Shown one piece after another: positions 1,694 to 23,342 of a DNA stretch of 64,000 nucleotides; position 1 is the stretch's first letter; each line of letters opens with the position of its first letter. Source of the stretch: Thioclava sp. ES.031 (GTDB taxonomy: Bacteria > Pseudomonadota > Alphaproteobacteria > Rhodobacterales > Rhodobacteraceae); NCBI RefSeq assembly GCF_002563775.1, contig NZ_PDJO01000001.1, forward strand, positions 1,622,001-1,686,000, written 5' to 3'. Under the pieces are notes generated by a model. The model saw nothing but the letters and a program-made list of their open reading frames with translations. It was not told the DNA's origin and did no database searches. Made by a program: the position numbers and the translations under genes.

Positions 1694-1726
1694 CGCAGGC
1701 CCCGCTCCTCCCAAGCGGGGCCTGCG
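1694..1726. terminator. Long GC-rich stem-loop after tctA
   Basis: A perfect 13-bp inverted repeat (arms 1694-1706 and 1714-1726, 7-nt loop) between the converging tctA and SDR genes. No T run follows, so by itself it is more an mRNA-stabilising or bidirectional pause structure than a classical terminator. Confidence 0.5.
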
Positions 1727-1739
1727 CCGGATCGAAGGC

Positions 1740-1771
1740 AGGGGCGGCGGTGGTCAATCCGCCGCCCCTTT
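1740..1771 (+). terminator. Rho-independent terminator for tctA
   Basis: Perfect 11-bp GC stem (1740-1750 pairing with 1759-1769, 8-nt loop) followed by TTTCTC. It ends 15 bases before the stop codon of the opposing SDR gene and separates the two converging operons. Confidence 0.65.
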
Positions 1772-1785
1772 CTCACCTCCGAGCC

Positions 1786-2589
1786 TTATTGCGTGGTCCA
1801 GCCGCCATCGACGGGGATCGAGGTGCCGGTCACGTTGTGCGCGATCGGCGCACAGAGCCACAGCGCGAGCGCCCCGATCTCGGAGGGATCGGACATGCGC
1901 CGGGTGGGCTGCTTTTCCGCCAGAAGATCCGCGATCCCCGCCGCCCGGTCGCCACCATGCGCCGCTGCGCGTTCCGCGATCTGGGGGCCGAGAATGTCGG
2001 TCTCGGTCCAGCCCGGACAGATGCAGTTCACCGTCACGCCGCCCGCCTCGCGCGTGCCCGCCTGCGCATATTCCAGTGCGGCGACCCGGCTCATGCCCAC
2101 CAGACCGAATTTCGAGGCGACATAGGGCGCCTTGTTGGCCGAGGCCACGAGCCCATGCACTGAGGCGATGTTCACGACGCGGCCATAACCGCGCTCGGCC
2201 ATGCCCGGCATCGCGCGGCGCATCGTGTGGAACGCGCCCGACAGGTTCACCGCGAGAATGGCGTTCCAGATCTCGGGCGTGGCCTCGGCGAGGCTGACCG
2301 TGCGCTGGATGCCTGCATTGTTCACGAGGATATCCGCGCCGCCCCACGCCTCGACCGCATCCATCATCGCGTCGATCTGTGCCGGATCAGCCATATCGGC
2401 GTCGAAGAACTTCACCTCGGGCGCGCCCGCGGCCTCCAGCACCGCTGTCGCCTCGGCGACCTGCGCCTCATCGGCCAAACCGTGCAATGCAATGCGCGCG
2501 CCCGCCTCGGCCAGCGATTTCGCGATCGCAAGCCCGATGCCTTGCACCGAACCCGTTACCAGAGCCGTCTTTCCATCCAGTCGCGACAT
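1786..2589 (-). CDS. SDR, 3-hydroxybutyrate dehydrogenase-like
   Basis: 267-residue classical short-chain dehydrogenase, probably NAD(H)-dependent and acting on a 3-hydroxyacyl substrate. Visible motifs are the nucleotide-binding GSVQGIG at residues 13-19, NNAG, the catalytic Ser in NIASVHG and YVASK carrying the catalytic Tyr and Lys. The C-terminus VDGGWTTQ is typical of D-3-hydroxybutyrate dehydrogenases, which this resembles most. The ATG shares one base with the TAA of the upstream CoA ligase (TAATG). This implies translational coupling and places the gene last in a thiolase / ligase / dehydrogenase operon. The true substrate may be a beta-oxidation-type intermediate rather than 3-hydroxybutyrate. 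Confidence 0.85.
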   Translation of the reverse strand: MSRLDGKTALVTGSVQGIGLAIAKSLAEAGARIALHGLADEAQVAEATAVLEAAGAPEVKFFDADMADPAQIDAMMDAVEAWGGADILVNNAGIQRTVSLAEATPEIWNAILAVNLSGAFHTMRRAMPGMAERGYGRVVNIASVHGLVASANKAPYVASKFGLVGMSRVAALEYAQAGTREAGGVTVNCICPGWTETDILGPQIAERAAAHGGDRAAGIADLLAEKQPTRRMSDPSEIGALALWLCAPIAHNVTGTSIPVDGGWTTQ

Positions 2590-4091
2590 TAGTCCTCCTC
2601 CGTCACTTTCTTGCGCAGCTCGGTCTTGAGGACCTTGCCGTAATTGTTCTTGGGAAGCTGCGTCACCACGCGATACGCCTTGGGGCGCTTGAACCGCGCG
2701 ATCTGCTCGCAGCAATGTTGATCGAGGGCGGCGGGGTCGATCTCGGTCTCCGGCGCGGGCGTGACGAAGGCCACGACGCTCTCGCCCCATTCCGGATCGG
2801 GCTTTCCGACCACCGCGACCTCGTGGACCGAAGGGTGCAAGAGCAGCGCCTCCTCGACCTCGCGGGGGTAGATATTCGTGCCGCCCGAGATGATCACGTC
2901 CTTCGAGCGGTCCTGCAGCGTGACGAAGCCGTCCGCATCCATCGTGCCCAGATCGCCGGTCCAGAGCCAGCCGTCGCGGAGCGCCTTCGCGCTTGCCTCG
3001 GGGTTCTGCCAATAGCCGCCCATGACGGCTGCCCCGCGCACCAGAATCTCGCCGGTCTCGCCCGCGGGCAGGGCGCGGCCCTCGCTGTCGGCGATGCGCA
3101 CCGCGACCGGGCTCTGCGCCTGACCGACCGAGGCCAGACGCTCACGCCAGCGTGGATGGCTGCGGTCGGCGACCAGCTCGCGCGACAGGGCGGTGATCGT
3201 CATCGGGCTCTCGCCCTGGCCGTAAATCTGGACGAAGCGCGGCCCCATCACTTCGACCGCGTCGATGATATCGGCGACATACATCGGCCCGCCGCCATAG
3301 ACGATCGTCTTGATGCCCTCGCCGGTCTGGCCCGTGGCGCGGGCGCGGTCCACCAGACGGCGGATCATCGTGGGGGCGGCGAACATCGAGACATGTTGCA
3401 GCTTCGGCGCGAGATCGAGGATTTCGTCCGCCTCGAACCCGCCCGAGTGCGGCACCACATGGCGCGCCCCGCGCATCACATGGACGAAATTGTAAAGCCC
3501 CGCGCCATGCGACATCGGCGCGGCGTAGAGGATCGCGTCCTGCGGTTCCACGCTGTCGACATCCGAGAAATAGCCCAGACACATCGCCTGCACATTGGCC
3601 GAGGTGATGCACACGCCCTTGGGCCGCCCGGTCGTGCCGGAGGTGTAGAACAGCCAGACCGTCTCGGTCTCAATGATCTCGACCGGGGCGGGCATCGGAT
3701 CATGGCGCAGAAGATCGGCATAGGCCGGGCCTTTCAGGTCCACGGTCTCGACGCCCAGATCGATCCCCGGGTCGCCGGTGAAGGCCAGCTTCGCCTCGGA
3801 AGCCTCAACGATCCATGCGGCCTCGCGCGGGTGCAGCTTGCCGTTGATCGGCACCGCCACCGCGCCTGCGAACCAGATACCATAGATCGCCTCTAGATAT
3901 TCGGGGCAGTTCTTGGCGAACAGCGCCACGCGGTCGCCCGGAGCGATCCCTTTCGTGACCAGCGCCGCCCCGATCCGGGCGGCGCGGTCGGCGAATTGCG
4001 CATAGGTCGCACGCAGCTCTTCGCCCTGCAGTAGCGCAGGGGCGTCCGGCGTGCGGACCGAGCTGCGGATCAGCCACTCCGCCGGGTTCAT
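2589..4091 (-). CDS. AMP-dependent acyl-CoA synthetase
   Basis: 500-residue adenylate-forming CoA ligase that activates a carboxylic acid with ATP and CoA. The P-loop-like core YTSGTTGRPKG is at residues 149-159. Further C-terminal are YGQGESP, the TGDLG hinge and the catalytic-Lys region NNYGKVLKTELRKK. Length is normal for the medium/long-chain or aromatic acid ligase group. It overlaps the thiolase gene upstream by 4 bases (ATGA) and the SDR gene downstream by 1 base, so the three form one transcript. Substrate class cannot be decided from the sequence. Its partners suggest the acid is degraded by a short beta-oxidation-like route. Confidence 0.88.
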   Translation of the reverse strand: MNPAEWLIRSSVRTPDAPALLQGEELRATYAQFADRAARIGAALVTKGIAPGDRVALFAKNCPEYLEAIYGIWFAGAVAVPINGKLHPREAAWIVEASEAKLAFTGDPGIDLGVETVDLKGPAYADLLRHDPMPAPVEIIETETVWLFYTSGTTGRPKGVCITSANVQAMCLGYFSDVDSVEPQDAILYAAPMSHGAGLYNFVHVMRGARHVVPHSGGFEADEILDLAPKLQHVSMFAAPTMIRRLVDRARATGQTGEGIKTIVYGGGPMYVADIIDAVEVMGPRFVQIYGQGESPMTITALSRELVADRSHPRWRERLASVGQAQSPVAVRIADSEGRALPAGETGEILVRGAAVMGGYWQNPEASAKALRDGWLWTGDLGTMDADGFVTLQDRSKDVIISGGTNIYPREVEEALLLHPSVHEVAVVGKPDPEWGESVVAFVTPAPETEIDPAALDQHCCEQIARFKRPKAYRVVTQLPKNNYGKVLKTELRKKVTEED

Positions 4092-5254
4092 GCCGCGCGC
4101 TCCGCTTCGAGGATGGAGCAGTAATTCGCGACGCCCGAGCCGCCCATGTTGAAGACGCAGCCCAGTTCCGCGCCGGGCAGTTGCATCTCGCCCGCCTGAC
4201 CGGTGAGCTGCATCGCGGCCAGCACATGCATCGACACGCCGGTCGCGCCCACGGGATGGCCCTTGGCCTTCAACCCGCCCGAGACATTCACCGGCAGACG
4301 CCCGTCGCGCAGCACCAGACCGTCGTCGATGGCCCGCGCGCCCGCGCCTTGCGGCGCAAGCCCCATCGCCTCGTAGACGAGCAGTTCCGCGATGGTGAAA
4401 CAGTCATGGACCTCGGCGAAGGAGAGATCGTCGACCCCCACGCCCGCCGAAGCATAGGCGCGGCGGAAGGCCTCTGCCGGGCCTTCGAAGGCCAGCAGAT
4501 CGCGGCGCGACATCGGCAGGTAGTCACTGACCTGCTCGGCGGCGCGGAACGCGATGGAATTGGCGAAATCGCCCGCGCGGTCATCGGCGACCATGACCAG
4601 CGCCGCCGCCCCGTCGGAAATCAGCGAGCAATCGGTCATCCGCAGGGGCGGGGCGATCATCGGGTTCTTGTCGCTGACCGTGTTACAGAATTCGAACCCC
4701 ACATCCTTGCGCATCTGCGCCAGCGGATTGGCCAGCGCATTGTGGTGGTTTTTCGCGGCGATCCGGGCCAGCGCGGCCGAGCGGTCGCCATGCGCCTGAT
4801 AATAGGCCTGCGCAAACCGTGCGAAAATCTGCGGGAAGGAAACGCCCGCTTCCTCCATCTGGTAAGACGCCCCGGCCAGCGCCTCGGTGACGCCGGCGGT
4901 GTCCTTCGCGGTCATCTTCTCGGCCCCGATCACCAGCGCGGCCTTCACCCGGCTCGAGCGGATCGCATCGCGCGCGGCATAGATCGCAGCCGAGCCCGAC
5001 GCGCAGGCATTCTCCACGCGGGTCGCAGGCGTGAAGCGCATCCTGTCGTCGATCCCCAGCGCCAGCGAGCTTGCGAACCCGTCCGGCACCAGCCCGGCGT
5101 TGAAATGGCCCAGCCAGATGCCGTCGATCTCTGCCGGGTCGATCCCTGCGTGCTCCAGCGCGCCGCCGCCCGCTTCGAGAACCAGGTCCTCGAGCGTGCG
5201 CCCCTCCAGCTTGCCGAATTTCGTATGGCCCCAGCCGACGATCTTCGCGTCCAT
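4088..5254 (-). CDS. Thiolase family protein (SCP2/acetyl-CoA acetyltransferase type)
   Basis: 388-residue thiolase-fold protein. The nucleophilic Cys84 sits in VENACASGSAA. The C-terminal half has the His of GHPVGATG and a second Cys in ELGCVFNMGGSG, the pattern of SCP-x-like thiolases rather than PhaA. It would cleave a 3-ketoacyl-CoA, or condense acyl-CoAs. It is the first gene of the operon and is divergent from the PAS-LuxR gene across 94 bases. The ATG at 5254 is preceded by GGGAGGAG, an excellent ribosome site. Confidence 0.87.
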   Translation of the reverse strand: MDAKIVGWGHTKFGKLEGRTLEDLVLEAGGGALEHAGIDPAEIDGIWLGHFNAGLVPDGFASSLALGIDDRMRFTPATRVENACASGSAAIYAARDAIRSSRVKAALVIGAEKMTAKDTAGVTEALAGASYQMEEAGVSFPQIFARFAQAYYQAHGDRSAALARIAAKNHHNALANPLAQMRKDVGFEFCNTVSDKNPMIAPPLRMTDCSLISDGAAALVMVADDRAGDFANSIAFRAAEQVSDYLPMSRRDLLAFEGPAEAFRRAYASAGVGVDDLSFAEVHDCFTIAELLVYEAMGLAPQGAGARAIDDGLVLRDGRLPVNVSGGLKAKGHPVGATGVSMHVLAAMQLTGQAGEMQLPGAELGCVFNMGGSGVANYCSILEAERAA

Positions 5255-14895: not shown

Positions 14896-15894
14896 TTAGC
14901 CGAAGAGGATCAGATGCGAGCGCCAGATCACGATCAGGCAGACGATCCCGAAGCTTGCGAACCCGGCCATCGACCAGATCAGCAGCCGCCGCATCAAGCC
15001 CGGCAGCGGCCCGGCCAGCGAGGCGCGCTTTTGAAACGGGCTGAGCGCGCCCGCCCCAAGCCCGGCTGCGGTGGCCAGAAACAGCGGCACATACAGCGCG
15101 TAGCCGACATAGCCGTATTCGGGCTTGAGGATGCAGAACGGGCAATGATGGTTGGGGTTTTCATAGATATAGAGCGAGATCGTGGCGACGATCGCGGTCA
15201 GCCCCATCCCGAACACCAGCGCCGAGGCCAGCGCGTAAAGCCCGTAGCCGCGCTTGCGGATCAACGCCGCGATCCCCGTAGCCAAGGCGATCAGCGCGGT
15301 GAGGCCAAGCAGCCAGAGCGCCTGCGCTTCGCCGACGCCCGCCATCTGGTTCGCGAGATTAGGGTTGTTCGGCGTGAACAGTTTCGAGCAGCACGAGGTG
15401 ATGACATCGGTCTGCATGTCGAGGAAATAGCTCAACTCGACCGCGCCATCGGCAAGGATCAGCGGCGTGATCGCCAAAAGGGCTGCGTATTTCACGCGGG
15501 TCAGCGGGTAGTCCCGTCCCAGCCTGTCGGCCCGGTCGAGGATCAGCCAGATCACGGCGGCGAAGAACACGCCGATCTTGAGATAGAGCGCGGGGAAGCC
15601 GTAATCGTTTACGTTGAGCGTGCCGACGGCGCACATCGCGCCGACGAATAGCGACGACATCCGGTCGGCATTGAAGACGAACAGCAAAAGCGCGGCGAGC
15701 TCGGCCAGCATGACAGCGGCGAAGAGGGTCGAGACCAGCTCGGTCATGCGCTCCATGCGCAGCTGGCGCGCGCCCATATCCGTCAGATCCCAGCGGCGCA
15801 GCACGGTGACGGCGAAGCCGCCCGCCCAGAGCGCCGTCAGCGCGGCCAGACCCGCCACCAGCAACAGCGCCATGATCGGCGTTTGAAAGATCAT
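14896..15894 (-). CDS. Polytopic membrane protein with CPFC motif in the NosL-ABC operon
   Basis: 332 residues with about eight predicted TM helices. Notable polar residues facing loops are SCCSK in the middle and NHHCPFCILKPEYGY in the later half, which could bind a metal or act as a thiol pair. I do not recognise the family; CPFC recalls redox or metal-transfer proteins such as VKOR-like or DUF2946 proteins but there is no clear match. The gene overlaps the ABC ATPase gene by 4 bases (ATGA), so it belongs to the same transcript as the transporter and the two NosL-like proteins. It is the last gene of the operon. Confidence 0.7.
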   Translation of the reverse strand: MIFQTPIMALLLVAGLAALTALWAGGFAVTVLRRWDLTDMGARQLRMERMTELVSTLFAAVMLAELAALLLFVFNADRMSSLFVGAMCAVGTLNVNDYGFPALYLKIGVFFAAVIWLILDRADRLGRDYPLTRVKYAALLAITPLILADGAVELSYFLDMQTDVITSCCSKLFTPNNPNLANQMAGVGEAQALWLLGLTALIALATGIAALIRKRGYGLYALASALVFGMGLTAIVATISLYIYENPNHHCPFCILKPEYGYVGYALYVPLFLATAAGLGAGALSPFQKRASLAGPLPGLMRRLLIWSMAGFASFGIVCLIVIWRSHLILFG

Positions 15895-16589
15895 GGCTGC
15901 GGCTCCTGCTGGGCGGGCGCGTCCTCGATCCGCCCGTCACGCATCGCCACCACCCGGTCGACGCAGTCCGCGCCCCAGACGCGGGGGTCGTGGCTCGACA
16001 TGATGACGGTGCGCCCGCGCGCTTTCTCCTCGGCGACGATCTGCAGGAAAGTCTCGGAAAGCGCGCTGTCGAGATTGGCCGTGGGCTCGTCTGCGATCAG
16101 GATCGGGGGATCGTTGATGAGCGCCCGCGCGATCGCCGCGCGCTGTGCCTCGCCGCCCGAGAGCAGCTCGATCCGGGTCTGGGCGCGCGGCCCCAGACCC
16201 AGCGCCTCGATCCGGTCCATCGCCCGTTCGTGCAACTCCCCGAAGGGCTGGCCCAGCGGCGCGGCTGGCAGCATCACGTTTTCCAGCACGGTCAGCCCGC
16301 GCACGAGGTTGAACCGCTGGAAGATGAAGCCGAACCGCTCGCGCCGCAGTTCGGTCTGGAAGTGCTCGGGCAGGCCCGAGACGACCTCGCCATCGAGGCT
16401 GACGCGGCCCGTGGAGGGGCGCGCCATGCAGGCGACGACCGACAGGAGCGAGGATTTCCCCGAGCCCGACGGTCCCTTGAGAACGGTGACGGCCCGGCCC
16501 TCGATCGTCAGGTCGATCCCGTCCAGCGCGGTCACGGCATTGGGGCGGCCCGCATTATAGGTCTTGGTCACGGATTGCAGTGTGATCAT
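15891..16589 (-). CDS. ABC transporter ATP-binding protein (LolD/MacB type)
   Basis: 232-residue ABC ATPase. Walker A is GPSGSGKSS, the signature is LSGGEAQR and Walker B is ILIADEPT. Sequence features are those of the LolD/MacB/FtsE group, whose partners are FtsX-like permeases. Here the partner is the permease gene immediately upstream (10-base gap). This group usually powers mechanical extraction or periplasmic work rather than solute uptake. In this operon the clients are likely the NosL-like proteins or their metal cargo. Confidence 0.88.
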   Translation of the reverse strand: MITLQSVTKTYNAGRPNAVTALDGIDLTIEGRAVTVLKGPSGSGKSSLLSVVACMARPSTGRVSLDGEVVSGLPEHFQTELRRERFGFIFQRFNLVRGLTVLENVMLPAAPLGQPFGELHERAMDRIEALGLGPRAQTRIELLSGGEAQRAAIARALINDPPILIADEPTANLDSALSETFLQIVAEEKARGRTVIMSSHDPRVWGADCVDRVVAMRDGRIEDAPAQQEPQP

Positions 16590-16599
16590 GGGGGCCTCC

Positions 16600-17742
16600 T
16601 CAGCGCATCACGGCATCGGGATCGGCCGAGGCCGTGCGCCAGATCGGCACCACGGTCGCGGCGATATAGGGCAGGGTGGTCAGCAGCGCGAGCGTCAGCA
16701 GTTGCAGCCCGTCCACATGCGGGCTCAGCGGGAAATCGGGATAGATCACCGCCCAGCCCTTCAGGATCGGTGCGAAGAGCGGGGCGCCGAAGAAGAACAC
16801 ATGGGCGAAGCCCGCGACGGTGCCGATCAGGAAAGCTGCGAGCGAGATCAGCCCGCCTTCCCACATCTTCATCGCGATCACGTCGCGCGTGTTCCAGCCC
16901 ACGGCCTTGAGGATGCCGATCTCGCGCGCTTCCTCGGCCGAGAGCCCGCTGGCTTTTTCGGCGGCGAAGATGACGAAGGCGAGGATGCCCGCGAAGGCCA
17001 GTGCCGTCAGCAGCCCCTCGCGCCAGTCGAACAGTTTCTGATAGGTACGCGCGATATCGGCGCGGGTGACGAAGCGCATCTGCGGCAGCGCGGTCGAGCC
17101 TTTCTGGACGATCGTGGCGACCTCGTTGGGGTTGCGCACACGGGCCACGACATCGGTGTAGCGACCTTCGGGAATGTCGAAGAAGTTGCGGAAATCAGCC
17201 TCGTTCATCAGCATCAGATCCGAGGTCATCAGCGCGGAGTCGCGGCTGAAGGTCCTGGCGACGTCGAATTTCTTCAGATCGCCCTCGTAGCGCGACAGGA
17301 AAACCGGGGCGCCCGCCCATTCGAGGCCGCGTGCGCGGGGGATGCCCTCGCCAATCGTGATCTGACCGGGATCGGGCATCATCTCGGGGTCGTCGGGCAC
17401 CATGACGGTGTAATTCGCGCCATTGATCCGGTCGTAGTAATAGCCCCAGAGCCGGGGATGGGCCTCGGTTACACCGCGGATTGCGGCGATCTCGTCCGCG
17501 ACCGATCCGTCGATCAGGTCCTGACGGCCCAGCGTGATTTTCTGTACGGTGATCTCGGGCGCGCCTTCGAGCACGGTCGTGGTCTCGAACCGCAGGCTGG
17601 CGGCGAAGAATATCGCCGAGGCGAGCACGAAGACCACCACGGAATAGACGGCGATCAGGGCGATATTCTTGCCTTTGCGGCGGGCGAGAGCGGCGAGGGT
17701 GAAATCGGCCAGCGCGCGCTGGCGGCGCAGGAATGGGGTCAT
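16600..17742 (-). CDS. ABC permease, FtsX/MacB family
   Basis: 380 residues: N-terminal TM helix (about 26-48), a large periplasmic MacB_PCD-like domain (about 50-255) and three C-terminal TM helices with the conserved EAREIGILKAVGW coupling motif between the first two. This is the type VII ABC topology (LolC/E, MacB, FtsX). It overlaps the stop of the upstream 107-residue gene by 4 bases, so the module small protein / permease / ATPase / membrane protein is tightly coupled. Function in metal-centre assembly is suggested by the two NosL-like genes only. Confidence 0.85.
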   Translation of the reverse strand: MTPFLRRQRALADFTLAALARRKGKNIALIAVYSVVVFVLASAIFFAASLRFETTTVLEGAPEITVQKITLGRQDLIDGSVADEIAAIRGVTEAHPRLWGYYYDRINGANYTVMVPDDPEMMPDPGQITIGEGIPRARGLEWAGAPVFLSRYEGDLKKFDVARTFSRDSALMTSDLMLMNEADFRNFFDIPEGRYTDVVARVRNPNEVATIVQKGSTALPQMRFVTRADIARTYQKLFDWREGLLTALAFAGILAFVIFAAEKASGLSAEEAREIGILKAVGWNTRDVIAMKMWEGGLISLAAFLIGTVAGFAHVFFFGAPLFAPILKGWAVIYPDFPLSPHVDGLQLLTLALLTTLPYIAATVVPIWRTASADPDAVMR

Positions 17743-18062
17743 TTCGCGGCCTCGGGTTGGAAGAGGAGCCAGCCCTTGCCGGGCGTGGCGGGGGGCGGCA
17801 CGAAGGTGCCGGAGGGGAAGTGGTCGAAGCTGCCCGGGTGGTCCTGAAACGGCGTGTTCAGATCGGCGAGGCTCGGGTTCCGGGTATAGCGCGCCTCGGT
17901 AAACAGCGCCGGATCGGTCAGCCCTAGCCGCGCGACCAATGTGCGCTCTTCCAACAGGCGGCCATCACGATGGGGACGCGCGAAGACGGGGTAATAAAGC
18001 TCCACCGCCAGCAGTAGCGTCAGACAACCGAGACCCGCGAAAACATAGCTCGAACGGCGCAT
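17739..18062 (-). CDS. Small membrane-anchored protein of the NosL-ABC operon
   Basis: 107 residues with one N-terminal TM/signal anchor (about 6-26) and a periplasmic tail rich in Pro and Phe (HPGSFDHFPSGTFVPPPATP, GWLLFQPE). No Cys in the tail and no recognised domain. Its ATG shares one base with the stop of the second nosL-like gene (TGATG) and its stop overlaps the permease start by 4 bases. It is therefore a genuine operon member, perhaps an accessory subunit bridging the permease and the NosL-like proteins. Confidence 0.7.
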   Translation of the reverse strand: MRRSSYVFAGLGCLTLLLAVELYYPVFARPHRDGRLLEERTLVARLGLTDPALFTEARYTRNPSLADLNTPFQDHPGSFDHFPSGTFVPPPATPGKGWLLFQPEAAK

Positions 18063-18646
18063 CAGAACGGGCCGCCCTGATCGAGCGCGTCGAGCAGCTC
18101 CGGCGTGACCTCGTCATGGCGCAGCAGCTTCTGGCCCTTGTGGTCGCGCATGAAATCCTGCGCATCGACCGCGTTCATAAGCGGCACCAGCTCGTGGCCC
18201 ATCGGGCCCAGCACGTCCGAGCCCACGACATAAAGCGCCTCGCGCGCGTCGATCAGCTTGAGCCCGTAATACTCCGTCACGCCCATGCCGGTGATCTGAT
18301 CGGCGGTCCGGCCAAGGGCGTATTTCTCCATGTCGAACATGTATTTGAAGTAGTCCTTGGCGCCGTCGAAATGATCGGCATAGCCATCCGCGTAGAGCAC
18401 CGTGGTGACCCATTCGGGGTATTTGTAGACGAACATGCCGCAGACCGGGCAGGTGTCGCCGGGGCCGGGCGGGGGCAGGTCGAGCGTGGGCGCATCGGCG
18501 CGCGCGGGGCTCAGCCCCGGGCCGAGCGAGAGGGCGGCGGCGAGGCCCGCCGCGCGTTTGAGCATCTGGCGCCGCGTTGGGCGTGACATGGGGCGTGACA
18601 GGGGGCGTGCGGGCGTGCTCCCGTGATGGCAGGGATGGTTGCACAT
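18062..18646 (-). CDS. NosL-like protein 2, Tat-exported
   Basis: 194 residues. A twin-arginine signal is evident (TRRQMLK followed by AAGLAAALSLG and an ARA cleavage site). The mature part begins with DTCPVCGMFVYKYPEW, the CxxCGM pattern of NosL copper(I)-binding proteins. Later Met residues (MGVTEYY, PMGHELVP) may add ligands. NosL delivers copper to nitrous oxide reductase; here no nosZ is in sight, so another cuproenzyme or metal sensor may be served. The start at 18646 is chosen for the AAGGAG site 10 bases upstream. Upstream in-frame starts lack one. The N-terminus before the Tat motif (MCNHPCHHGS) carries extra Cys/His. Confidence 0.8.
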   Translation of the reverse strand: MCNHPCHHGSTPARPLSRPMSRPTRRQMLKRAAGLAAALSLGPGLSPARADAPTLDLPPPGPGDTCPVCGMFVYKYPEWVTTVLYADGYADHFDGAKDYFKYMFDMEKYALGRTADQITGMGVTEYYGLKLIDAREALYVVGSDVLGPMGHELVPLMNAVDAQDFMRDHKGQKLLRHDEVTPELLDALDQGGPF

Positions 18647-18681
18647 CGTCTTGCAACTCCTTGAATAGAGGTCGGAAAGGA

Positions 18682-18700
18682 CGGGGCCGCGCGGGCCCCG
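18682..18700 (-). other. Stem-loop between the two nosL-like genes
   Basis: 7-bp perfect GC stem (18682-18688 with 18694-18700, 5-nt loop) in the 65-base gap. There is no T run, so it is more likely a processing or stability hairpin than a terminator. It could set different levels of the two NosL-like proteins. Confidence 0.4.
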
Positions 18701-18711
18701 CCCTGAGGCGA

Positions 18712-19326
18712 TCACTGACCGGCGCGGGCGCGGCGCTCGGCGCGGCGTTTGCGAATGTTGATCGTGTCGCGCGCCATATCGGCATAGGCCATGACCAGCG
18801 CCTCATCGAAGCTCGCCAGCTTGCCCCCGTCCTTGGCCGCCGCATCCGCCTTGGCCGGATCGGCATAGGCGTATTTCGACGTGCCGGTCATCGTGCCGGG
18901 CTTTTTCGCGTCGATCACATAGGTCATGTCGTCGACCACCGCGAGCGGCTTGACCTTGGCCGTGGCCCCCGCATCGCCCGCGTAGATCGTCTTGGGGCCC
19001 GCATCCACGTTGAGCGCGAGGCTGATCGCCGCGCAATGCAGCGAGCAGGTGCCGTCGACGGTGTCGTTGTCATAGACGATCAGGTGGCGCGTCTGGCTGA
19101 ACATCTGCCGCATCATGCCGCAATAGGGGCAGCGGGGGTATTTCTCGAACTCGTTCTCGAGCGGCGCCGTGTCGGTCTTGAGAAAGCGGGTCAGCCCGTT
19201 CTGGTCGGTCCAGTCCATCGGCGACATCGGCATGCCGTCCATCGGTTTCATATCCTCGGCAGCGGCGCCGGAAGCCACCAGCGCGAGGCCGGTCGAAGAG
19301 GTCAGAAGAAAGTCGCGTCGTTTCAT
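18712..19326 (-). CDS. NosL-like protein 1, Tat-exported
   Basis: 204 residues starting MKRRDFLLTSS, a Tat-type signal ending near SGAAAE. The mature part contains a Met-rich stretch (MKPMDGMPMSPMDW), then the NosL-type CPYCGMM and a further TCSLHCA. This adds up to many soft copper ligands. The C-terminus is basic (RKRRAERRARAG). It differs clearly from the second NosL-like protein, so the pair is not a recent duplication. The start at 19326 has AGGATG upstream. An ATG three codons earlier is possible. Copper binding is inferred from family and motif. Confidence 0.8.
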   Translation of the reverse strand: MKRRDFLLTSSTGLALVASGAAAEDMKPMDGMPMSPMDWTDQNGLTRFLKTDTAPLENEFEKYPRCPYCGMMRQMFSQTRHLIVYDNDTVDGTCSLHCAAISLALNVDAGPKTIYAGDAGATAKVKPLAVVDDMTYVIDAKKPGTMTGTSKYAYADPAKADAAAKDGGKLASFDEALVMAYADMARDTINIRKRRAERRARAGQ

Positions 19327-19437
19327 CGGGATCATCCTGTCATATCGCAACGCACCGCCATCGAGAGACGGGCGCAGTCGCGAGCCATGTGTCTGGTTTG
19401 GAAAAAAGCACGTCCGGATCGACGTGCAGGGACGCAC

Positions 19438-19953
19438 TCAGACGACAGGAGGGGCGCGGGCGTGCCGGAAACGGGGCGCGGTCTGCACCGGGAGAGAGAG
19501 CCGCTCAAGGGACGCGTGGAGCGGGGCGATCTCGCGGTCGAGACGGGCCGGGGTGACGATCGTGTCGGGCGCCTCAAACGCGCAGACCGAGGCCGAGCCG
19601 CAGACTGCGCATTGGCTGTGGACCTGACCGGTGGGCGCGGTCTGGCCGGGCAGGGGCGCGGCCCCATCCGGGGCGGCGACCGTTTCGCCCTGCGGGGTCA
19701 TGTAGACGATGCCCTCGCCGGTACAGATCTGCAGCAGCCCCATCTGCGCGCCGGGCGCGGCCCGGCCGGTGGCGGCGATGGCGGCCGCGCCCAGATGATC
19801 GGTCAGCAGGACGACCTGCAGCAGGATCGCGACGAGCGCGGTCAGCAGCGCCGATTGCGCGCGGCGCAATCCAGCGAAGCGCGGCGCGTGCAGGCGCGGG
19901 CCGCGTTCGATCTTGCCGTCAAAGGCTCTGGAGGCGCGTTGGGGTCGGGTCAT
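19438..19953 (-). CDS. DUF2946-like periplasmic/membrane protein
   Basis: 171 residues: a basic N-terminus, one hydrophobic segment (LLTALVAILLQVVLLTDHLG) and a tail with QICTGEG, SQCAVCGSASVCAF and a Pro-rich end. The single TM followed by IC... and CxxC...C is the layout of DUF2946, a family often found beside copper transport genes. It is the first gene of the operon with two NosL-like proteins and an ABC transporter, with 111 bases before the next gene. Start ATG at 19953; a GTG one codon earlier is possible. Confidence 0.7.
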   Translation of the reverse strand: MTRPQRASRAFDGKIERGPRLHAPRFAGLRRAQSALLTALVAILLQVVLLTDHLGAAAIAATGRAAPGAQMGLLQICTGEGIVYMTPQGETVAAPDGAAPLPGQTAPTGQVHSQCAVCGSASVCAFEAPDTIVTPARLDREIAPLHASLERLSLPVQTAPRFRHARAPPVV

Positions 19954-19989
19954 CACTCAAGCTCGTATCACACGAGGGTGAGCCGAGAA

Positions 19990-20003
19990 TTGATCCGCGT
20001 CAA
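19990..20003 (-). promoter_or_regulatory. FNR/CRP-family (FnrL/Nnr-type) binding box
   Basis: TTGATCCGCGTCAA, or TTGACGCGGATCAA in the operon direction, matches the TTGAY-N4-RTCAA box of FnrL/FnrP/NNR regulators. It lies 36 bases before the start of the DUF2946-like gene. This predicts induction of the whole NosL-ABC operon under low oxygen or nitric oxide. The close spacing implies a very short leader. The regulator itself is not in the window. Confidence 0.65.
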
Positions 20004-21494: not shown

Positions 21495-21731
21495 TCAGGC
21501 CGACAGCCAGCCTTCGAGCTTGCCGCTGTCGGGCAGGCCGCCCGTGTGGACCAGCTTCCCGTCGACCGAGACACCGGGGGTCGACATCACGCCCGCCATG
21601 GCGATCGCGCGGGGATCGGTCACCTTCTCGACCGAGACCTCGATGCCGAGCTTGGCGGCCGCTTCCTTGACCATCTCTTCGGTCTTTTCGCAGCGTTTGC
21701 AGCCGGGGCCGTAAACCTTGACGTCCTTCAT
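21495..21731 (-). CDS. Small thioredoxin-fold redox protein (redox-active disulfide protein 2 type)
   Basis: 78 residues, thioredoxin fold with the CxxC motif YGPGCKRCEK near the N-terminus and the cis-Pro segment STPGVSVDGKLVHTG. This is the MTH895/redox-active disulfide protein 2 group, routinely encoded beside the YraQ/DUF318 permeases, as here. It likely reduces the permease or its cargo. GGAG lies upstream of the ATG, 11 bases after the permease stop. Third gene of an ArsR / permease / thioredoxin operon. Confidence 0.85.
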   Translation of the reverse strand: MKDVKVYGPGCKRCEKTEEMVKEAAAKLGIEVSVEKVTDPRAIAMAGVMSTPGVSVDGKLVHTGGLPDSGKLEGWLSA

Positions 21732-21742
21732 TTCTTTTCTCC

Positions 21743-22804
21743 TTAGAACAATGCGTTGAACAGGAAGCCGACGGCGAGGATGCCGCTGGCGACGACCCCG
21801 ATGAACACCGCGATCAGGCGCAGTTTCAGGACCTGACGCAGGATGATCATCTCGGGCATGGAAAGCGCGATCACCGACATCATGAAGGCCAGAACCGTGC
21901 CGAGCGCGGCGCCCTTGCCCAGAAGCGCCTCCACGATCGGGATGACGCCGGCGGCGTTGGTGTACATCGGCACGCCCATCAGAACGGCTGCCGGCACCGA
22001 CCACCACGTGCCCGAGCCCATGATGCGCACCATCAGGTCCTGCGGCACATAGCCGTGGATCAGCGCGCCCATGGCGATCCCGACGATGATCCAGATCCAG
22101 ACCTTGGCGAAGATCTCGCGCACCGCCTCGAGGCCCAGACGATAGCGGTCGGTCATGCTCAGATCGTCGCTCTCGACCGCGCCCGGGGTGGTTGCGCCGG
22201 AATGGATATCGCGCACCCAGTCCTGCAGCCAGCCCTCGACATGGAGCCTGCCGATCACCCAACCCGCGACGATCGCGATGGCGAGGCCGAAGGCGAGATA
22301 GACCAGCGCCACGGACCAGCCGACGAGGCCGACCAGCAGGATCAGCGCCACTTCGTTGACCATCGGGGCTGCGATCAGGAAGGAGAAGGTGACGCCCAGC
22401 GGGATGCCCGCGGAGACGAAGCCGATGAACAGCGGCACCGCCGAGCAGGAGCAGAACGGGGTCAAGACGCCCAGGCCCGCCGCCATCACGTTGCCGACGC
22501 CCTCGCGCTTGCCCGAGAGAAGCGCGCGGGTCTTTTCCGGGCTGAAGAAGCTGCGCACGACCCCCATCGCGAAGACGATCAGGGTGAGCAGCATCATCAC
22601 TTTCGGCACGTCGTAGAAGAAGAAGGCCAGCGCCTCGCCGGTATGGGTGTCGCGGGCGACCGGCAGCAGCGAGACGATCCATTCGGAGAGGGCCGGGAGC
22701 TGGTGGTAGACTACCCACCAAACGACGAGCCCTGCCGCGACGACCACGCTCCACGCCCAGCCGGGCATCCCGCCATGCGGGGTTTCATGCTGTGTCACAC
22801 TCAT
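21743..22804 (-). CDS. DUF318/YraQ-type permease (ArsP-like superfamily)
   Basis: 353-residue permease with about ten TM helices in two repeats. The first repeat carries LTPFCSCSAVPLFIGFVSAG and the second MGVPMYTNAAGVIPIVEALL, both hallmarks of the YraQ/DUF318 family, which includes the organoarsenical exporter ArsP. The CSCS thiols and the adjacent thioredoxin-like protein suggest handling of a thiophilic compound such as a metalloid or organo-metalloid. That substrate is not established. The ATG overlaps the stop of the ArsR gene by 4 bases. Confidence 0.85.
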   Translation of the reverse strand: MSVTQHETPHGGMPGWAWSVVVAAGLVVWWVVYHQLPALSEWIVSLLPVARDTHTGEALAFFFYDVPKVMMLLTLIVFAMGVVRSFFSPEKTRALLSGKREGVGNVMAAGLGVLTPFCSCSAVPLFIGFVSAGIPLGVTFSFLIAAPMVNEVALILLVGLVGWSVALVYLAFGLAIAIVAGWVIGRLHVEGWLQDWVRDIHSGATTPGAVESDDLSMTDRYRLGLEAVREIFAKVWIWIIVGIAMGALIHGYVPQDLMVRIMGSGTWWSVPAAVLMGVPMYTNAAGVIPIVEALLGKGAALGTVLAFMMSVIALSMPEMIILRQVLKLRLIAVFIGVVASGILAVGFLFNALF

Positions 22805-23091
22805 GCCGCGGTCCTTTCCGTGTTGGCGCTGGCTTTCATGACCGCGCTCAGAATCTGCTGGATTTCCGGGGAGAGGTCGGGGTTCACCCGATACCGGACC
22901 CATTGCGCATCGCGCCGGTCGACGACCAGCCCGGCGGCTTTCAGCACGCCCATATGGCGCGACATGCGCGACTGGGTGACATCGAGACGCGCCATCAGTT
23001 CGCAGGCGCAATGCTCGCCCCCGTCATGCAAAAGCTGCATCGCCCCCAGCCGGGTGGGTTCGGCAAGTGCGGAAAGAATCGTCACGATCAT
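22801..23091 (-). CDS. ArsR-family repressor
   Basis: 96-residue winged-helix repressor (SALAEPTRLGAMQLLHDG, CELMARLDVTQSRMSRHMGV, LKAAGLV, wing VDRRDAQWVRY). A Cys pair (HCACEL) at the start of the recognition helices matches the ArsR CxC-type metalloid or thiol sensing position. The start at 23091 is chosen because GGAGG is five bases upstream. Starts at 23103 and 23133 are in frame but weaker. It leads the permease / thioredoxin operon and probably represses it until the inducer binds. Confidence 0.87.
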   Translation of the reverse strand: MIVTILSALAEPTRLGAMQLLHDGGEHCACELMARLDVTQSRMSRHMGVLKAAGLVVDRRDAQWVRYRVNPDLSPEIQQILSAVMKASANTERTAA

Positions 23092-23112
23092 CGGTGCCTC
23101 CATTTCGACATT

Positions 23113-23122
23113 CGCATATGCG
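23113..23122. promoter_or_regulatory. CGCATATGCG palindrome, probable ArsR operator
   Basis: A perfect 10-bp dyad centred on CATATG, 22 bases before the chosen arsR start, with a partial repeat (GCGCATTCGCGC) next to it. ArsR/SmtB proteins commonly bind imperfect dyads of this kind overlapping the promoter, so autoregulation is likely. Confidence 0.5.
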
Positions 23123-23342
23123 CATTCGCGCAAATAGAGTCAACGCGCCCGAGGTGGAGCATTCGGTCGCACCCATCCACCGGGGCGCGGGAATCTATCG
23201 ATGAGAGTGATCGCATCACGGGCCTCTGACCTTCACGGGATCGGGGCCAGATTAGCGCTGAAGGGACGCATCGCTTCAATGCGCTCGATCAAGTCGGGCG
23301 CGATTCTTCGAGATATCTAGCGAAAGGCCACGGTGTTGGGCG

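Follow-up and report, generated by a model that had tools for sequence, protein, structure and literature searches.

NosL is commonly taken as a mark of nitrous oxide reduction, and a 2019 survey ties it to nitrous oxide reductase (PMC6769254; here and below, PMC numbers stand for the available part of each paper). Classical NosL carries a lipoprotein anchor (PMC7558416). NosL with an ATP-binding cassette (ABC) transporter but without NosZ is not itself new: Parageobacillus thermoglucosidasius has NosL-NosDFY without nosZ (PMC13068155), and a listing of the Shewanella sir sulfite reductase genes includes nosL and nosY (PMC5955497). The published sets have NosDFY-type transporters. For CuB of cbb3 oxidases and for the copper sites of NosZ, the periplasmic supply of copper is understood only in part. 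Here we report an apparently undescribed, conserved copper module, a seven-gene operon with two NosL proteins in Thioclava sp. ES.031 (contig NZ_PDJO01000001.1), in which NosL is part of a separate module that is also found in nosZ-free genomes. Positions are those of the 64,000-nt stretch that was analysed, referred to as the window.

The open reading frames (ORFs), all co-directional on the minus strand between 14896 and 19956, are transcribed in the order DUF2946, NosL1, NosL2, SMALL (a short, anchored protein), PERM (a permease), ATP (its ATPase) and POLY (a polytopic membrane protein). As in NosDFY-NosL, a NosL chaperone stands with an ABC transporter, and both NosLs keep CxxCGM and a downstream Met within the stretch aligned with solved NosL. 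Here, however, the permease is LolC/MacB-like, the seven genes include neither NosD nor a NosFY-type ABC transporter, the two NosLs lack a lipobox, POLY and SMALL are extra, and the genome has no nosZ. The Parageobacillus and Shewanella sets (PMC13068155; PMC5955497) resemble the operon in that NosL and an ABC transporter serve, or are proposed to serve, a target other than NosZ; they differ in having NosDFY or NosY rather than a LolC-type transporter, and the available text shows no POLY-like protein or second NosL there. LolCDE, MacB and HrtBA share the PERM fold and the ATPase class; the present set differs from them in its single permease gene, in missing all LolC, LolD, FtsE and MacB cut-offs, and in its NosL and POLY partners. 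In the DUF2946 literature NosL appears among many neighbours (PMC8456105). No description of the module was found in the open literature, subscription papers and preprints lying outside the search, which agrees with an earlier reading of the window from its sequence alone (the sequence-only reading) that the set looked undescribed.

On balance, we lean towards reading the operon as a copper-handover machine, driven by an ABC transporter, that serves the cuproenzymes of low-oxygen growth, mainly cbb3 oxidase, and NosZ where present; copper binding, direction of transfer, ATP coupling and target are what we infer. The sequence-only reading had proposed a separate copper delivery module for low-oxygen growth, and support comes from copper-related neighbours, the co-occurrence of NosL1 with the eight-transmembrane (8-TM) POLY, an FNR/FixK-type box and the presence of ccoN in 53/57 module genomes. 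In the proposed mechanism, an FnrL-type regulator would activate the operon at low oxygen. Under copper scarcity, the ribosome would stall at the RAPP motif of the DUF2946 leader and the genes behind it would be expressed, whereas copper on the nascent CXXC would release the ribosome and turn them off. POLY would hold Cu(I) in a Cys/His cluster of its periplasmic loops, and the type VII permease-ATPase would convert cytoplasmic ATP into periplasmic movement that passes copper between POLY and NosL2/NosL1, with SMALL as a putative anchored adaptor. Copper would finally pass to periplasm-facing cuproenzymes, here chiefly cbb3 oxidase and elsewhere also NosZ. A fuller version of this proposal is less likely than not: a second, NosDFY-independent and ATP-powered copper-site assembly in which the mechanotransmission ABC pair loads two NosLs from POLY for CuB of C-type heme-copper oxidases, and in denitrifiers for NosZ as well, under joint control by oxygen and by copper sensed on the nascent chain. 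If the copper-handover reading is right, the module would be a new copper route powered by an ABC transporter and would include a new family of membrane proteins. Since the module occurs in culturable genera, e.g. Thioclava and Rhodobacter, a gene-deletion test is feasible.

Conservation and proteins of the operon

An alignment search with POLY returned at least 567 relatives, of which the best 80 were taken as loci (L007-L086) spanning up to 10 kb on each side; the locus counts given here rest on these, and the 51 loci with at least 7 kb on both sides are called full. Genes were scored as present where a same-strand match over thresholds set in this analysis lay anywhere in the locus. POLY, SMALL, PERM and ATP occurred together in 51/51 full loci, NosL1 in 46/51, NosL2 in 46/51 and both in 45/51. 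The hosts comprise Rhodobacteraceae, Magnetospirillum, Cohaesibacter, Rhodocyclaceae, Gallionellaceae and gammaproteobacteria such as Sedimenticola, several of the records being metagenome-assembled genomes (MAGs) that are possibly mis-binned; two Thioclava loci encode a POLY 98% identical to that of the window. Co-occurrence in other genomes, which had been suggested as a check, was thus found for the core four genes throughout, with conserved gene order, and the operon is a real conserved unit.

Among 398 sampled genomes of the phylum, POLY matched seven, six of them at full length. The NosL1 profile scored E <= 3.5e-75 in exactly these six and gave one weak match without POLY (G156, 5.7e-7), in a search whose first pass scored few candidates per genome (5 and 7). 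The 6/6 co-occurrence has a Fisher p of 1.9e-13, genome relatedness not being modelled. The link is more than adjacency, because NosL1 lies about 15 kb from POLY in genome G413. A distant version in G149 has a NosL, another gene, SMALL, PERM, the ATPase and a POLY 28% identical to that of the window, without NosL1.

The clusters of relatives often add a P1B-ATPase (17 of the 32 full loci outside Rhodobacteraceae), DsbD_2 (22) and TlpA (23), and sometimes SCO1 (8) or PCuAC (3), which points to a module that handles copper. One P1B representative matched the copper-translocating model TIGR01511 with 571 bits (cut-off 397), and 17 of the same 32 loci have what we label an HMA-like protein, the one scanned being without a Pfam match. 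As a separate observation, many loci have a protein of about 110-120 aa, often Met-rich, between TlpA and the P1B-ATPase (e.g. L040:11681-12004), and the one scanned had no Pfam family.

Both NosL proteins pass the PF05573 cut-off of 24 bits, and they are the two matches to this family in the complete 4.02-Mb genome. We take CxxCGM and the later conserved Met of NosL to be its copper-binding residues. NosL1 has C69, C72, G73, M74, T96, C97, S98, H100, C101 and M149 invariant in 22 rows, and C69, C72, G73, M74 and M149 are invariant across 27 rows that hold both NosL types. NosL2 matches the solved NosL structures 7og7 and 7osf by sequence, with GxMG aligned to them. Export by the twin-arginine pathway, which had been claimed for both proteins, is well supported for NosL1, whose RR is invariant in 22/22 rows; for NosL2 of the window it is likely, though the signal RRQMLK is sub-threshold (16.3 vs 16.7 bits), with RRx[FLMIV] upstream of CPxCGM in 29/56 NosL2 ORFs. 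A pattern search, with no signal predictor run, found a lipobox in neither NosL of the window and in 0/55 NosL1 and 1/56 NosL2 cluster ORFs, though short signals narrowly fail the pattern. The database name of NosL1, Thioclava included, is 'nitrous oxide reductase accessory protein NosL', and the five Thioclava genomes tested have no nosZ; the name can mislead surveys of nitrous oxide reduction.

PERM matches LolC, its best PDB sequence match, by profile (2.4e-7). With its structural model (pLDDT 81.7), Foldseek returned LolE (2.2e-16), MacB (2.2e-12) and HrtB (5e-11); in all there were 56 PDB matches at E<=0.001, LolE first, with modest query TM-scores of 0.32-0.62 among the matches listed. 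Together with an FtsX domain over cut-off, this fold match upholds the mechanotransmission-type permease proposed earlier. PERM reached 31 bits with the LolC/LolE equivalog TIGR02212 and so missed the cut-off of 362.45. The LolD-type ATPase stood in part: ATP has a strong ABC_tran match, and its best NCBIfam matches, FtsE, MacB and LolD, are all under their cut-offs. One His column and one Met column of PERM are invariant in 20 rows. With no conserved Cys in its sequence, PERM more probably transmits force than conducts copper, and the presence of one permease gene suggests that it acts as a homodimer. SMALL has no Pfam or NCBIfam family over cut-off, and 15 columns are invariant among 24 sequences.

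POLY has no Pfam or NCBIfam family over cut-off and no PDB sequence match up to E 10, and its model has no PDB fold match at E<=0.001. The AlphaFold2 model (54 sequences) is confident, with pLDDT 91.5 and pTM 0.90, and has eight helices; the polytopic protein with SCCSK and HCPFC described in the sequence-only reading is as stated. Apart from the Cys and His residues in the table, M87 is also invariant in the 54 sequences and kept in the distant homologue, and the other Cys, His and Met residues of the window POLY are unconserved except M1 and, partly, M79 (44/54). The Cys/His loops are predicted to be periplasmic under the positive-inside rule, because they lie on the side poor in lysine and arginine (on average 4.4 in 124 residues for these loops and the two ends, and 10.5 in 72 residues for the opposite side). 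The conserved Cys/His set resembles a metal site more closely than it does a simple CXXC thiol pair, since the distant homologue has C254D yet keeps C88, C168, C169, H249, H250 and C251.

Predicted control by copper and oxygen

CruR, a DUF2946 protein, is an upstream ORF at the head of a Bordetella copper-uptake operon (PMC9426467, PMC12914433). Its CXXC senses copper and its terminal RAPP arrests the ribosome; copper lifts the arrest, and Rho then stops transcription ahead of the next gene (PMC9426467). The two motifs are 45 residues apart, within one or two across the family (PMC9426467). CutF of Rhodobacter capsulatus, a DUF2946-like leader that belongs to a different cluster, works the other way round from CruR (PMC9973294). 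The DUF2946 ORF of the window is likewise the first gene of its operon, with CXXC, 47 residues, RAPP, two residues and the stop; it shares with these leaders the C-over-G stretch and the structured gap, and differs in that the genes downstream are the NosL-ABC set. The strict CXXC/RAPP pattern was found in 18/19 full rhodobacteral loci, 33/51 full loci and 38/80 loci overall, and the sole rhodobacteral miss (L025) has the motifs, with seven residues after PP. Near the leader end C makes up 44-51% and G 26-28% (78-nt windows centred 27-105 nt before the stop). The gap between DUF2946 and NosL1 is 102-111 nt and contains a hairpin and T6; a hairpin directly followed by a T-run was seen in the window, L007 (T4) and L008 (T5) only, and other loci have other folds and gaps of 96-185 nt.

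By analogy, the best interpretation of DUF2946 is a leader ORF that senses copper, not a working component, a point missing from the sequence-only reading. Because it has the CXXC and terminal RAPP of CruR, the analogy predicts that the operon is expressed when copper is scarce; because CutF acts in the opposite sense, shut-off by copper is a prediction from motif similarity. The leader may act via Rho, an intrinsic terminator or a start-site hairpin.

FNR-type control had been proposed, and a predicted FNR-type site, an exact TTGAN6TCAA box (TTGACGCGGATCAA), lies at the promoter. Across 594 kb of 27 loci the pattern has 18 occurrences, ten of them in the 340-nt windows upstream of DUF2946, where 0.28 are expected; with three near-identical loci counted once, eight boxes remain there (Poisson 3.8e-10). 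The genome as a whole has 48 occurrences, compared with 11 for the reversed control. The same 14-mer recurs, letter-identical, at C1:3195064-3195077, about 180 bp upstream of ccoN, the cbb3 oxidase ORF, as a predicted site; this copy coincides with the beginning of a divergent universal-stress-protein gene (Pfam Usp match), and a third copy lies at C1:390982. The 14-mer is also listed for rcc01156 of Rhodobacter capsulatus, a UspA-domain gene (PMC4634722). The box is so near the listed start of DUF2946 that a class II promoter would initiate at about the ATG (window 19953-19996). An in-frame TTG before RRAQSALL may be the true start.

Candidate clients and competing explanations

The enzyme survey covered nine sampled genomes and 50 of the 80 loci (49 obtained, 48 after the nosZ search), leaving out 30 loci and G149. 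The sequence-only reading had suggested a correlation with cuproenzymes, which was found for cbb3; NosZ is enriched though not required, and NirK failed in this genome, with none over cut-off. Weak matches to the copper nitrite reductase model fall in a 479-aa frame that is possibly a multicopper oxidase. The four module genomes without ccoN over cut-off are all MAG records. This genome has ccoN and, in addition, a second, divergent ccoN-like cluster at C1:2208500-2214000 (positions 1704-5225 of that interval, plus strand), a cbb3-like oxidase that may act on O2 or NO, whose COX1 scores 272 bits against a ccoN cut-off of 583 and which has FixO-like and multi-heme cytochrome genes; the COX1 of this second cluster scores 267-273 bits in five Thioclava genomes and one Rhodobacteraceae MAG.

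Several results weigh against a copper-handover machine centred on cbb3. The excess of ccoN over the phylum (53/57 vs 135/200, p 3.4e-5) is measured on a background that is not lineage-matched and includes module genomes, and as evidence for the target the link is weak, because ccoN is common anyway. SCO1 is over cut-off in 55/57 module genomes, so the module does not simply replace known cbb3 chaperones, and most of the sampled phylum genomes have cbb3 while only 7/398 have POLY, which means that cbb3 does not generally depend on it either. In the phylum sample nosZ is a stronger correlate than ccoN (5/7 with POLY vs 56/391 without, p 0.0012). The window PERM is without Cys, and Cys is conserved nowhere in its alignment (3/20 rows have one or two). 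No copper neighbour exceeded the thresholds used in any of the 19 full rhodobacteral loci, and the P-type ATPases of rhodobacteral L014 and L027 lack a CPC motif. In 17/27 loci the scanned window has no exact FNR box; the R. capsulatus operon (L017) has a different 14-mer, which is absent from the main text of the FnrL regulon paper (PMC4634722). Finally, DUF2946-like leaders respond to copper in opposite ways, CruR switching off and CutF on. Both ccoN and nosZ are enriched in module genomes, and neither enrichment is proof of a client.

NosZ is the known client of NosL, and the module might therefore be a trans-acting second NosZ assembly system, working with or instead of NosDFY-NosL, its nosZ-free loci being remnants or having other uses; we consider this unlikely. 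The phylum-wide link just given argues for it, as does nosZ in 37/58 module genomes (36/57 if G549 and G016, likely a single genome because their coordinates are identical, are counted once) compared with 61/398 in the sample, and 27/40 matched NosZ places are of a longer type. Against it, 21/58 module genomes have no nosZ, among them five Thioclava genomes and this complete 4.02-Mb genome, in which PF18764 had zero matches; the genes are thus not confined to nos operons, as the sequence-only reading had it. In each of the eight sampled module genomes with nosZ, this gene and POLY are on separate contigs or at least about 0.8 Mb apart, and the link within the family sample is weak (3/4 vs 43/145, p 0.09). 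The longer type consists of frames of 766-849 aa, the phylum sample having mostly about 630-715 aa (e.g. G413:C1:804724, 809437); we presume that the longer frames are possibly clade II NosZ.

Copper acquisition, in which POLY and the ABC pair would import copper or load a P1B-ATPase and the NosLs would act as periplasmic collectors, is improbable. CruR does head a copper-uptake operon, and some cores have TonB receptors, PCuAC and a P1B-ATPase nearby. The conserved Cys, His and Met residues of POLY (M1 apart), however, lie in or beside periplasmic loops, and none is mid-membrane except M79 near a helix end. To our knowledge, type VII ABC systems of known function import no solutes, which also counts against acquisition.

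We hold it very unlikely that the set is a LolCDE-like lipoprotein system or a thiol-redox system with POLY as a DsbB-like thiol relay and copper incidental. LolC as the best PDB sequence match of PERM, the CPFC and CC pair of POLY, and the TlpA and DsbD_2 neighbours of relatives would fit it; the scarcity of lipoboxes among the NosL ORFs speaks against it, as does the C254D of the distant POLY homologue with its other Cys and His kept. A MacB-type pump for copper efflux or detoxification, suggested by the PERM fold near MacB and the heme extruder HrtB and by P1B-ATPases nearby in relatives, is highly improbable, given that family scans found no MacA- or TolC-like partner among the operon proteins, that a CruR-class leader predicts shut-off by copper and that the box is held in common with ccoN. 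MccA contains copper, and many module hosts are, we assume, sulfur oxidisers. Delivery to another periplasmic copper enzyme, e.g. the heme-copper sulfite reductase SirA/MccA or a multicopper oxidase, is also highly improbable, for all the Shewanella listing of nosL and nosY with sir (PMC5955497) and the 479-aa frame of this genome, the scanned neighbours suggesting no SirA/MccA, for which no aimed search was made.

Gene calls and adjoining genes

The gene calls bear out the sequence-only description of seven co-directional genes with their motifs, and the DUF2946-like, the two NosL-type and the FtsX-type permease families each have Pfam matches over cut-off. Four of the joins had been described as overlapping; with starts backed by relatives (NosL1 ATG at 19335 or 19326, NosL2 ATG at 18646) there are three, NosL2/SMALL by 1 nt, SMALL/PERM by 4 nt and ATP/POLY by 4 nt.

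Table 1. Features of the operon and its upstream region in window coordinates.
Feature	Position	Strand	Basis or remark
FNR/FixK-type box TTGACGCGGATCAA	19990..20003	-	exact TTGAN6TCAA upstream of DUF2946
DUF2946 leader ORF, CruR class	19438..19956	-	PF11162 27.7 bits, cut-off 23.7; start uncertain, downstream TTG possible
CAVC, predicted copper-sensing CXXC of nascent leader	19600..19611	-	motif role from PMC9426467
RAPP, predicted ribosome-arrest motif	19447..19458	-	motif role from PMC9426467
Hairpin then T6, just past leader stop	19402..19427	-	sequence
NosL1, RR signal, CPYCGM and TCSLHC	18712..19335	-	PF05573 37.6 bits
NosL2, CPVCGM NosL-family protein	18062..18646	-	PF05573 105.7 bits
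SMALL, 107 aa, N-terminal anchor (by eye)	17739..18062	-	motifs LFTEARYTR, DHFPSG
PERM, type VII (LolC/MacB/HrtB-like) permease	16600..17742	-	PF02687 38.3 bits, cut-off 25.5
ATP, ABC ATPase (GPSGSGKSS, LSGGEAQR, LIADEPT)	15891..16589	-	ABC_tran PF00005 100.9 bits
POLY, 8-TM membrane protein, SCCSK and HCPFC	14896..15894	-	outside known families
POLY C88, loop TM2-3	15631..15633	-	54/54; kept in distant G149 homologue
POLY C168-C169, loop TM4-5	15388..15393	-	54/54; kept in distant homologue
POLY H249-H250-C251-P-F-C254, loop TM6-7	15133..15150	-	54/54; distant homologue HHCPF, D for C254

Adjoining the copper operon, and in the same direction, an ArsR regulator, an ArsP_1 permease and a small Thioredoxin_3 protein (window 21495-23133, minus strand) form an unrelated metalloid-type cassette.

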